This document shows, piece by piece, positions 48,131-50,684 of a stretch of 64,000 nt of DNA. The first letter of the stretch is position 1, and each line of letters starts with the position of its first letter. The position numbers and the translations under genes were made by a program. Under the pieces are notes generated by a model. It made no database searches, was not told the origin of the DNA, and was given only the letters and a program-made list of their open reading frames with translations. Source of the DNA: Burkholderia cepacia (GTDB lineage: Bacteria; Pseudomonadota; Gammaproteobacteria; Burkholderiales; Burkholderiaceae); assembly GCF_029962485.1 (NCBI RefSeq), contig NZ_CP073637.1, positions 1,550,001 through 1,614,000 on the forward strand, in the 5' to 3' direction.

Positions 48131-48207
<77 letters not shown>

Positions 48208-48249: not shown

Positions 48250-48348
48250 TTGCCCGTCGCTTTTTTGCACATCGCGGCGCGGCCCCGGTAAAATGCAAGG
48301 TTGATCCACGGAAAGCGCCGTGATTTAGCGGAAGAGGATTCCCCGAAC

Positions 48349-49557
48349 ATGACTGATCTTCGTCTTACCATGCGGTTCGCTGCAGTGCTCGCCACCGGCG
48401 CGCTCGTCGCCGGTTGCGGTACGTCGTCGCCCACGAAAGTGGACTACAAGAGCGATTCGAAATCGAAGGAAGCGTCGCTCGCAGTGCCGCCCAACATGCT
48501 CGACGAGACGGCCGATCAGCGTTCGCTGCCGCCCCAGGGCGGCGCGACTTCCCTGTCTGCGCTTCAGCAGGTCCAGCAGGCAGCGCCTGCGCTCGACACC
48601 GTCGCGCCGACCGTGACCGGCATGCATATCCAGCGCGATGGCACCGAGAGCTGGCTCGTGATCGACGCCAAGCAGCCGGCCGACATCTGGCCGCAGGTCC
48701 GCCGGTTCTGGCAGGAGCAGGGCTTCCTGCTCGTGGTCGACCAGCGCGACAAGGGCGTGATGGAAACCGACTGGAACGAAACCCACCCGCAGATCAACGA
48801 CGGCCTGATCCGCAGCGTGATCTCGAAGGCGATGGGCAACTCGTACGTGACGGCCGAACGCAACAAGTACCGCACGCGCCTCGATTCGGCGCCGAACGGC
48901 GGCACCTACGTGTTCATCAGCCAGAAGGGCATGCGCGAGGCGATCACGGGTGCGAACAACGATTCGAGCAAGTGGGAGCCGAAGCCGAACGATCCGGCGC
49001 TCGAGACTGAATACCTGAAGCGGTTGATGGCCGTGCTCGCGCAGAATGCACAGCGCGCGAAGAACGGCGAACCGCCGATCGCGAACATCAAGGACAACAC
49101 GGTACCGGCGGAGAAGAAGGCCGACGCCGACGCATCGTCGAAGGCTGCCGCGGCGGTCGCCGCGCAGAACGTCACGCGCACGTCGGCACAAGGCAACGAC
49201 GCGGCCGACGCGGCTGTGCCGTCCGAAGTCACGCTCGGCGAGCCGTACGATCGGTCGTGGCTGCACGTCGGCCTCGCGCTCGATCGCGCGAACTTCACGG
49301 TCGACGATCGCGATCGCACGAAGGGTCTGTATTTCGTGCGCTACGTCGATCCGAAGGATCTGACCTCGGCCGAGCAGGGCTTCTGGAGCCAGCTGTTCCA
49401 CGGCAAGAAGGAAAAGCAGGCGAAGCAGTACCGCGTCAACGTGAAGGCGGTCACGGCCGACCAGACGCGCGTTGCGATCGTCGACGATGCGGGGGCGATC
49501 GACACGACGTCGGCGGCACGCCAGATCATGGGGCTGCTCGTGAATCAGCTGCGCTGA
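48349..49557 (+). CDS. bamC: outer-membrane assembly lipoprotein BamC
   Basis: Accessory lipoprotein of the BAM beta-barrel assembly complex, 402 residues. The lipobox LVAGC (Cys23) gives outer-membrane anchoring. Two helix-grip NlpB domains follow (about 90-195 and 300-400), joined by an Ala/Lys-rich linker of about 60 residues. The ATG at 48349 follows GAAGAGGA; the frame opens slightly upstream (48301). A terminator follows. Confidence 0.9.
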   Translation: MTDLRLTMRFAAVLATGALVAGCGTSSPTKVDYKSDSKSKEASLAVPPNMLDETADQRSLPPQGGATSLSALQQVQQAAPALDTVAPTVTGMHIQRDGTESWLVIDAKQPADIWPQVRRFWQEQGFLLVVDQRDKGVMETDWNETHPQINDGLIRSVISKAMGNSYVTAERNKYRTRLDSAPNGGTYVFISQKGMREAITGANNDSSKWEPKPNDPALETEYLKRLMAVLAQNAQRAKNGEPPIANIKDNTVPAEKKADADASSKAAAAVAAQNVTRTSAQGNDAADAAVPSEVTLGEPYDRSWLHVGLALDRANFTVDDRDRTKGLYFVRYVDPKDLTSAEQGFWSQLFHGKKEKQAKQYRVNVKAVTADQTRVAIVDDAGAIDTTSAARQIMGLLVNQLR

Positions 49558-49578: not shown

Positions 49579-49609
49579 CCAAAAAGCCCGCCATTCGGCG
49601 GGCTTTTTT
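49579..49609 (+). terminator. terminator of bamC
   Basis: Perfect stem GCCCGCC-ATTC-GGCGGGC (49586-49603) with A-run on the left and TTTTTT on the right. Confidence 0.9.
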
Positions 49610-49665
49610 CATGGCTGCTTGCTCCGGTGTGAGCATGTGCGAGCGGGTCGGTCCCTCCTGGTGAC

Positions 49666-49688
49666 GTTACGTAACATCCGCGCGTTAC
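49666..49688. promoter_or_regulatory. palindrome and repeat upstream of the sigma-54 promoter (candidate activator site)
   Basis: The perfect palindrome GTTACGTAAC (49666-49675) lies about 125 bases upstream of the predicted start, and CGTTACG occurs twice (49665-49671 and 49682-49688), 17 bases apart. This distance is usual for sigma-54 enhancer-binding proteins. The protein is unknown. Confidence 0.4.
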
Positions 49689-49768
49689 GGCGGCAGAACA
49701 CGTGTCACATTGTCTCGGACATCGAAAAATATCCTTTTAAATCAACGAAATGATCGGCGTGCGAGGGC

Positions 49769-49784
49769 TGGCATGCAACCTGCT
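49769..49784 (+). promoter_or_regulatory. sigma-54 (RpoN) -24/-12 promoter
   Basis: TGGCATGCAACCTGCT matches the consensus TGGCACG-N4-TTGCW at 10 of 12 fixed positions. The invariant GG (49770-49771) and GC (49782-49783) are 10 bases apart, which is exactly the required spacing. Transcription should start near 49795. Confidence 0.75.
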
Positions 49785-49794
49785 TTATATGTTG

Positions 49795-50005
49795 GAATTG
49801 TTGAAACAGGGAGGATGACGTCAGATGCCGGGCGGGCGCCGCGAGCGCCGGATCATCGGTATCGGCGTCTTCGAATGCCGGCGCGACATGCGCCGGTGCA
49901 ACCGATGACGATCCGCGCCAGCGTGCGGATCTCGATGGCCCCGTCGCCTATCCTCGTAGGGCGACGGTTTCGCCCGCGCTTCTCTGAAGCGCGGGCTATT
50001 TTTTT
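49795..50005 (+). ncRNA. predicted sigma-54-dependent small RNA
   Basis: From the predicted start near 49795 a transcript of about 210 bases would end at an intrinsic terminator. Before it sits an 8-bp hairpin CCGTCGCC/GGCGACGG (49941-49948 and 49960-49967) with an 11-base loop TATCCTCGTAG, which exposes a CCUC stretch. No long protein frame is convincing, although a 27-codon frame (49825-49908) lies inside. The downstream monooxygenase gene begins 90 bases after the terminator. I know of no name for this RNA. Confidence 0.55.
49972..50005 (+). terminator. terminator of the predicted small RNA
   Basis: An 11-bp perfect stem GCCCGCGCTTC/GAAGCGCGGGC (49972-49982 with 49986-49996) followed by TATTTTTTT. 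Confidence 0.85.
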
Positions 50006-50094
50006 GGGGCCGTCGGTTCGTGTCGCATCGGCGTGGCCGATGCGCGATGTGTGATTCGCGTATTCTCGGACTTTTATCGATGAAGGAGTCGGGA

Positions 50095-50385
50095 ATGGCG
50101 GCAATTGCAGTCGTGGCGCTGATCGTGGCGAAGCCGGGTACCGAGGAAAATCTGCGCACCGCGCTCGAAGGGATCGTCGGGCCGACCCGCAACGAAGCCG
50201 GCGCATTGCAGTACGACCTGCACCGGGATCTGAAGGAGCCTGCGCGATTCGTATTCGTCGAGCGTTGGGAGAGCGAGGAGGCATTGGCTGCCCATGCGCG
50301 TTCCGCGCACATTCTCGCTTATCGGGAAGCGGCCGCGGACTGGATCGAAAGTTCCGAAATCCGCGTGCTGTCGAAGCTCGTCTGA
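50095..50385 (+). CDS. antibiotic biosynthesis monooxygenase (ABM)-domain protein
   Basis: A 96-residue ferredoxin-like ABM protein, MAAIAVVALIVAKPGTEENL, with LQYDLHRDLKEPARFVFVERW as family core. Related small proteins are quinol monooxygenases (YgiN) or heme-degrading; the catalytic role here is open. AAGGAG lies 6 bases before the ATG, which decides against the longer frame from 50020. Confidence 0.88.
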   Translation: MAAIAVVALIVAKPGTEENLRTALEGIVGPTRNEAGALQYDLHRDLKEPARFVFVERWESEEALAAHARSAHILAYREAAADWIESSEIRVLSKLV

Positions 50386-50426: not shown

Positions 50427-50684
50427 TCAGTGCGACGTGCCGGGGACGTCGAGGATCAGGATGATCGTCCAGTCGGCGTCGCCGTCATGGTGATACTGGC
50501 GCTCGGCCACGATGAACGGCGCCTGCTTGCCTTGCGGGCCGAGAAACAGCACGTCGCCCTCCATCGGCAGGCATTCGATCGGCGGCAGCGCGAGGAATGC
50601 GTCGGCTGAGCCGCGGGGCATCAGTTGCTTGATCTGGCGAGTGGCGGCTTCGGTCCACTCGATGTCGAGTTGAATGTTGCTCAT
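50427..50684 (-). CDS. hypothetical protein (85 aa)
   Basis: MSNIQLDIEWTEAATRQIKQ begins an 85-residue soluble, acidic protein with no signal or membrane segment. Its codon usage agrees with its neighbours and a purine-rich GGAGGACAGC precedes the ATG. I do not recognise the family. It converges on the ABM gene. Confidence 0.7.
   Translation of the reverse strand: MSNIQLDIEWTEAATRQIKQLMPRGSADAFLALPPIECLPMEGDVLFLGPQGKQAPFIVAERQYHHDGDADWTIILILDVPGTSH

Follow-up and report, generated by a model that had tools for sequence, protein, structure and literature searches.

A conserved candidate small RNA gene with a predicted sigma-54 control region beside bamC in Burkholderia cepacia, and GtrR as its candidate activator

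The locus and its predicted product

The interval between bamC (48301-49557, PF06804) and a gene with an ABM domain (50095-50385, PF03992), both assigned by Pfam, very probably holds a conserved small RNA (sRNA) gene under sigma-54 control. Coordinates without a contig name are those of the window, i.e. the whole stretch of 64,000 nucleotides that was analysed. The original prediction was of a regulatory RNA that sigma-54 controls and that carries an anti-Shine-Dalgarno loop, and the comparative evidence supports it well. Our fuller explanation, to which we give a probability of about 0.6, would be a trans-acting sRNA driven by sigma-54, activated by GtrR and acting through this loop. An enhancer-binding protein (bEBP) would bind the GTTAC/GTAAC half-sites at 49661-49690, IHF would bend the DNA at 49740-49752 and the sigma-54 polymerase would start at about 49795, giving a trans-acting RNA that is about 209 nt long and ends at 50003-50005. 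The working part would be the 3' module, in which the loop AUCCUCGUA of a hairpin (H4) would pair with Shine-Dalgarno sequences of the CGAGGA type and block translation, and Hfq would make use of the U-tailed terminator. The activator would most likely be GtrR, a bEBP found beside the Flp/Tad cluster.

The bamC gene is followed by an inverted repeat with a T-run (49582-49610, plus strand as all elements of the sRNA unit given below), read from the sequence as its terminator, that parts it from the sRNA unit. Directly 5' of bamC there is a tRNA-Pro (GGG) at 48131-48207.

Distribution among relatives

A BLAST search with positions 49700-50020 matched 39 of 61 genomes, all 37 of the same genus (this genome included) and, weakly, 2 of the 24 from other genera. 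Loci were built for 30 of the matches, and both the -24/-12 element and the core hairpin were kept in every one of these same-genus loci (30/30). The exact 34-base core, searched in genome contigs, was found in 105 stretches, 80 of which are named among the matches listed and belong to Burkholderia, Paraburkholderia, Caballeronia and Trinickia; the core is invariant in these 80 by selection, having been the search key, and the BLAST and named-core sets share some organisms. Five named loci with less than 300 bases upstream were left out, and 58 of the remaining 75 carry the -24/-12 element. Of the 17 loci that have no such element, 14 are titled Caballeronia and three Burkholderia (turbans, peredens and Candidatus humilis), and the upstream DNA of these three aligns with Caballeronia. 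The element is thus kept in 58/58 non-Caballeronia loci and absent from 17/17 of the Caballeronia type, so that the expected conservation of element and hairpins across relatives holds outside Caballeronia and breaks down there for the promoter.

Many Caballeronia loci still have a weak box with GG-N10-GC spacing, for example TGGACAGTACATTGC (8 of 11 fixed bases), which makes the loss of sigma-54 control in them likely rather than proven. The Caballeronia-type loci (L051-L117) keep the core and have a quite different upstream region, with blocks of their own (GTGCGCAAAAGCTTATA and GGACAGTACATTGC) some 120-220 bases 5' of the core. Judging from these blocks, the upstream difference looks like an exchange of promoter.

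The sRNA model gave one strong match in this genome, a single copy by the models used. Three g32 loci (L289, L290 and L298) are distantly related to the core; they keep UAUCCUCGUA and have neither a UAS cluster nor a sigma-54 site scoring at least 8, so the RNA core may be older than its present control. That GtrR predates the sRNA was considered and given up, as these three loci share the loop. In g35, weak matches of the model (L291, L293-L296) correspond to a different double-hairpin RNA, CAUGCG-UUCCCCGU-CGCAUG followed by a terminator.

The predicted sigma-54 control region

The -24/-12 element TGGCATGCAACCTGC (49769-49783) had been described as near-consensus, with ten of twelve fixed bases and an exact GG-N10-GC spacing. 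The spacing is indeed exact, and the count is 9 of the 11 fixed bases of TGGCACG-N4-TTGC, which we take to be the sigma-54 consensus. The score alone is not beyond chance: the 64-kb window contains 11 sites scoring at least 9, versus 15.95 (sd 4.35) expected from 20 first-order Markov sequences. The support for the element is its conservation at a fixed place, not its score by itself.

Two further elements add to the original prediction. The first is an IHF-type site, AATCAACGAAATG (49740-49752), with one mismatch to WATCAANNNNTTR, presumably the IHF consensus. In the 75 bases before the promoter such a site is exact in 28 of the 58 loci and within one mismatch in 54, the corresponding figures for random 75-mers of the same loci being 0.16% and 0.84%. 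The second is the UAS GTGACGTTACGTAACATCCGCGCGTTACGG (49661-49690), about 80-108 bases 5' of the -24, with three GTTAC/GTAAC half-sites at 49666-49688. This is the only place in the window with at least three such half-sites within 60 bases. The cluster is found at the corresponding place in 56 of the 58 non-Caballeronia loci and in none of the 17 of the Caballeronia type, and no further cluster turns up elsewhere in these 75 loci (592,925 bases). Burkholderia loci have the form GTGACGTTACGTAACAT..GCGTTAC and Paraburkholderia loci GTAACGTGACGTTAC..GTAAC. Taken together, UAS, IHF-type site and -24/-12 element form a complete predicted sigma-54 control region. All three are also present at the locus of Paraburkholderia xenovorans LB400 (L123).

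A shared upstream motif at the Flp/Tad-adhesin locus

The sequence GTGACGTTACGTAACA, searched in this genome at no more than two mismatches, occurs at three places: the sRNA, one that is apparently coding and C1:1637244. The motif at the latter (L155, L157) precedes a perfect sigma-54 site, TGGCACGACAGTTGC, and the gene of a 609-aa collagen-like lipoprotein (adhesin) that is divergent from flp of the Flp/Tad cluster. The published passages on B. cenocepacia J2315 show an equal arrangement at bcal1524/bcal1525 (PMC10224339). Starting 12 kb beyond this promoter is a 463-aa bEBP (L176) with Sigma54_activat and Fis-type HTH domains. We take it to be GtrR (BCAL1536), because it has 463 aa and reads MRTTPA.. 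and ..TRESE; in the passages available on GtrR the protein has 463 aa and the gtrR primer ends imply MRNTPA.. and ..TRESE (PMC8174753). Published passages have GtrR acting with RpfR in BDSF/c-di-GMP signalling.

The half-sites were first defined at the sRNA and then sought in gtrR regions fetched from 20 other genomes with nine genus labels, the regions being chosen by gtrR. In 18 of the 20, spanning seven genus labels, a half-site cluster lies 135-198 bases 5' of a sigma-54 site scoring at least 9, and this promoter is about 12-14 kb from gtrR, as it is in our genome. The two exceptions are L231, with two half-sites beside promoters, and L233, with a cluster and no sigma-54 promoter of at least 9; L219 has one further cluster with no promoter. 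The gene behind the shared-UAS promoters resembles the same lipoprotein in most regions and was not recognised in L229 and L230. A similar motif and promoter were also seen in genera with no clear sRNA (L229, L230 and L232). The lectin cluster of the bclACB type (identity presumed), which published passages place downstream of BDSF, was tried as an independent check of a GtrR code and gave a negative answer, with no half-site cluster upstream in any of seven genomes.

Other activators were considered. The CbrB site is TGTTAC/GTAACA. Two published abstracts describe CbrAB as exclusive to pseudomonads or Pseudomonadaceae, and those on BerB and NtrC show no shared motif.

Co-occurrence of the sRNA and GtrR

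The GtrR N-terminus and the sRNA model R1 were searched in what is apparently the same family draw of 150 genomes. The counts cover genomes with a match in the GtrR, sRNA or PrpR search, to which 51, 32 and 29 matchless ones may add cases with neither, and genomes of the same genus are not independent in them. Within these bounds the sRNA and GtrR largely co-occur outside Caballeronia. Both are present in 15/15 genomes of g1, in 6 of 13 of g44 (neither in the other seven), where the terminators are identical to those of named Paraburkholderia loci (e.g. L194 and L110), and in 9 of 11 of g49, which resembles Trinickia (neither in the other two). In g34, Caballeronia by sequence, the sRNA is found in 14/14 and GtrR in 4/14, so that ten genomes have the sRNA with no intact GtrR; their loci, where examined, also have neither UAS nor -24/-12. 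PrpR, a control bEBP, does not track the sRNA: of the genomes with neither, all seven of g44 and one of the two of g49 have it, as do 13 of 14 of g34.

Fourteen weaker matches of the sRNA model were also inspected. G096 (g40) and G109 (g37) contain true relatives of the core and no intact GtrR. Upstream of the core, G109 has a 10/11 sigma-54 site (TGGCACGCAAGCTGC) with scattered half-sites, and G096 has a tandem half-site array with no sigma-54 site of at least 8. Both retain C-terminal remnants of gtrR at 32-33 kb from the sRNA, with 71% over residues 354-463 (G096:C6:136570-136890) and 62% over residues 403-463 with a stop (G109:C1:2800488-2800670). G099 (g44) likewise has no intact copy and small remnants only (C14:350677-350763), and G123 (g44, no GtrR) has a degenerate core only. 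The three g32 loci, too, come with no intact GtrR. Also in g40, G075 has both sRNA and GtrR, and G111 (83% complete) has GtrR only. Relatives of GtrR with no clear sRNA were found in g27, g29, g31, g35, g39 and g48; the first hairpin differs in the g35 matches examined.

GtrR is the likeliest activator because the UAS is shared with a gtrR-linked promoter and because sRNA and GtrR largely co-occur outside Caballeronia. We put its chances only a little above even and left them there, as the remnants cut both ways. Another bEBP might serve both the sRNA and the tad/adhesin promoter, GtrR being a mere neighbour. This we consider rather unlikely, and it has points in its favour: the genome has 21 strong matches to Sigma54_activat besides weaker ones, bclACB lacks the motif, G109 combines the sRNA and a good sigma-54 site with a mere remnant of gtrR, and the published passages on GtrR contain no binding motif for it. 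What speaks for GtrR instead is the motif at 12-13 kb from gtrR in 18 of the 20 gtrR-chosen regions, across seven genus labels, together with a co-occurrence that the control PrpR does not reproduce.

Structure of the RNA and likeness to known sRNAs

The predicted sRNA of about 209 nt extends from about 49795, as given by the spacing from the -12, to 50004, as given by the T-run, and predicted lengths across the 58 loci range from 194 to 253 nt. The entire 209-nt RNA has a fold z-score of -4.9, and the 66-nt double hairpin at its 3' end, a 9-pair hairpin with loop AUCCUCGUA plus an 11-pair terminator, one of -6.2. A hairpin before the terminator had been described with eight pairs and a CCUC loop. 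It is present (H4, 49941-49967), and in its minimum-energy fold it has nine pairs and a 9-base loop, AUCCUCGUA, at 49950-49958, the predicted anti-Shine-Dalgarno seed. H4 is invariant in the 48-sequence covariation set and so speaks neither for nor against pairing. A further hairpin, H3, lies at 49910-49932; for it 15 loci of several genera were tried, one without the exact core, and 10 of 14 folded loci have a hairpin at this position with differing sequences, the other four folding otherwise.

The terminator expected after some 210 bases is there as well (H5, 49972-50004, with a stem at 49972-49996 and a U-run), and it covaries between genera. By itself it is not beyond chance, as one was found and 1.0 expected in a crude scan with shuffles of the stretch. 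In the 48 sequences, 43 cells changed on both sides of the stem versus 14.6 in shuffles, and 99.4% of cells were paired, values that none of 500 shuffles reached. Two of the five covariation measures did not rise clearly above the shuffle level (double-change pairs, 4 versus 3.0; pair types, 10 versus 9.2). An intrinsic terminator with a U-tail is a feature of the Hfq type.

The predicted design, an sRNA from a sigma-54 promoter with dedicated bEBP sites, is that of the sigma-54-dependent sRNAs Qrr (LuxO), CrcZ (CbrB) and GlmY (GlrR), of which Qrr also takes part in quorum sensing. The likeness is one of design and does not come from sequence comparison, and half-sites and seeds differ here.

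In its 3' architecture the RNA resembles the double-hairpin sRNAs of RF02278 (ncS03, ncS05, ncS27 (bdhR1), ncS62 and S17 of B. pertussis), which likewise have two 3' hairpins and a CU-rich anti-Shine-Dalgarno seed, and anti-hemB (RF02837, ncS04), which has similar hairpins at another locus. It might therefore be a further copy of the "toxic" family RF02278, a reading that we find quite improbable. The scores, 25.0 bits for RF02278 and 33.7 for RF02837 (the best Rfam score), are below the gathering cut-offs of 50 and 49.5, and membership in either family was rejected for this reason. The seed here lies in the hairpin loop AUCCUCGUA, and UGUCUCCUCC, with which the four RF02278 members of this genome begin (L031, L032, L033 and L034; 62.6-76.5 bits), is absent. 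Furthermore, these four have no -24/-12 site of at least 9 in the 330 bases upstream. A fifth RF02278 candidate, L035, scored 42.5 bits.

Published passages on Bordetella S17, which resembles the RF02278 family, describe a precursor of 190 nt that is processed to 67 nt (PMC11722255), sizes like those of the 209-nt RNA and the 66-nt module here; the S17 promoter is given there as sigma-A. By this analogy, processing of the present RNA to the 66-nt module is a fair guess. In B. cenocepacia J2315, ncS11 is described as intergenic, 208 nt long and with a terminator. The length suggested identity, which was rejected because ncS11 adjoins hemP (about 3 kb away in the published passages) and hemP in our genome is 0.92 Mb from the sRNA, with no core in the surrounding 8 kb. 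None of the 15 biofilm sRNAs that are strongly expressed in J2315 matches by map position in the passages available, in which no sRNA of Table 1 maps between 1.18 and 2.54 Mb of replicon 1 (PMC5688073); synteny with bcal1524 (1.688 Mb) would place the J2315 counterpart within this range. Among the matches listed, the literature passages describe no Burkholderia sRNA as sigma-54-driven or as a GtrR target, and those of PMC10117139 discuss sigma-54 for an sRNA's target and not for the sRNA itself.

Other readings of the interval

A small protein of 27 aa, or one from a 79-aa frame, could be encoded instead of a regulatory RNA. The motif AGGGAGG near the 5' end is kept in most same-genus loci, and in this genome the 27-aa frame begins 10 bases 3' of it. 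However, a conserved frame was looked for in 30 loci and none was found, in agreement with the original view that there is no convincing large frame: 12 of the 30 share the start of the 27-aa frame, and the longer frame varies from 9 to 191 codons. In addition, in the named-core set the transcript portion of the Paraburkholderia and Caballeronia loci showed no GGGAGGA, which is missing from some Burkholderia loci as well, all of which makes a coding role very improbable. In the same part of the RNA, AGGGAGGAU (49809-49817), kept in most same-genus loci, is complementary to AUCCUC within the loop and is possibly an element of self-pairing or a sponge.

Nitrogen limitation or motility had been suggested as the condition of expression. 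The upstream half-sites do not support this, since GTTAC/GTAAC is unlike the NtrC consensus and is shared with the Flp/Tad-adhesin promoter near gtrR. An sRNA driven by NtrC or by nitrogen is thus hardly probable, even though published passages tie sigma-54 to nitrogen limitation in B. cenocepacia (PMC10117139, PMC5295037).

Finally, the RNA might be a leader or riboregulator of the ABM gene, on the same strand and starting about 90 bases 3' of it, which is very improbable, as the terminator intervenes and the ABM gene adjoins in only 54 of 96 testable loci versus 96 of 99 for bamC. The placement between bamC and ABM given originally is therefore right for this genome, and bamC is its only constant part. 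Convergent with the ABM gene there is a gene for an 85-aa protein of no Pfam family (50430-50684, minus strand), which 64 of 96 testable loci have next to the sRNA.

Possible targets and a proposed circuit

The exact complement of the 9-base loop, TACGAGGAT, has 30 sites in the genome, that of the sRNA locus included, versus three for the pattern read backwards. Four plausible ribosome sites of longer genes carry it (L246, L248, L250 and L256), labelled by eye as those of a protease-like lipoprotein, a Crp-like regulator, a membrane protein and an 89-aa protein. The loop had also been proposed as a seed for target prediction, with an outcome that depends on the background. In a post hoc test with heuristically chosen starts of this genome, 93 of them from outside the tad locus serving as background, pairing with the adhesin start GCGAGGAAGAAATG (-12.1) exceeded that with every background start, and pairing with the flp start ACGAGGAATAAAAAATG (-11.3) was equalled by one of the 93. 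Against the first background, 149 tad-rich starts, these values ranked only within the best 2.7% (adhesin) and 12.8% (flp). CGAGG is present at 12 of the 93 starts and 35 of the 149.

Among the sRNA-bearing genomes with readable starts, CGAGG is found at 13 of 15 flp starts (not in G142 and G075) and at 15 of 16 adhesin starts (not in L225). Of the genomes with no sRNA, G125 and G085 have no CGAGG at their flp and adhesin starts, and G074 has it at one of its two flp starts. The CGAGG pattern and the loop pairing are suggestive only of adhesin and pilin targets, and we propose tentatively, at odds clearly below even, that Flp and adhesin mRNAs are among the targets of the sRNA.

GtrR as activator would put the RNA under BDSF/c-di-GMP quorum sensing. 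A more speculative step, on balance unlikely as a whole, is a circuit in which GtrR/RpfR, with BDSF lowering c-di-GMP, would use one UAS code to turn on both the adhesin/Flp-Tad locus and the sRNA, and the sRNA would then pair with the adhesin and pilin Shine-Dalgarno sequences, an incoherent feed-forward loop limiting or pulsing attachment. Loop and target Shine-Dalgarno type would, in such a circuit, be kept together across genera. The logic is analogous to that of LuxO-Qrr, with unrelated parts.

If true, these bacteria would have a built-in brake on attachment, with a control signal shared with the pilus/adhesin locus whose messages the RNA could silence. The clusters of GTTAC/GTAAC are proposed as the DNA recognition code of GtrR. 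What would otherwise be a generic finding becomes a specific circuit through the predicted activator and targets, and with a complete promoter, one predicted activator and a short target list the link from BDSF/c-di-GMP to post-transcriptional control of adhesins would be directly testable.
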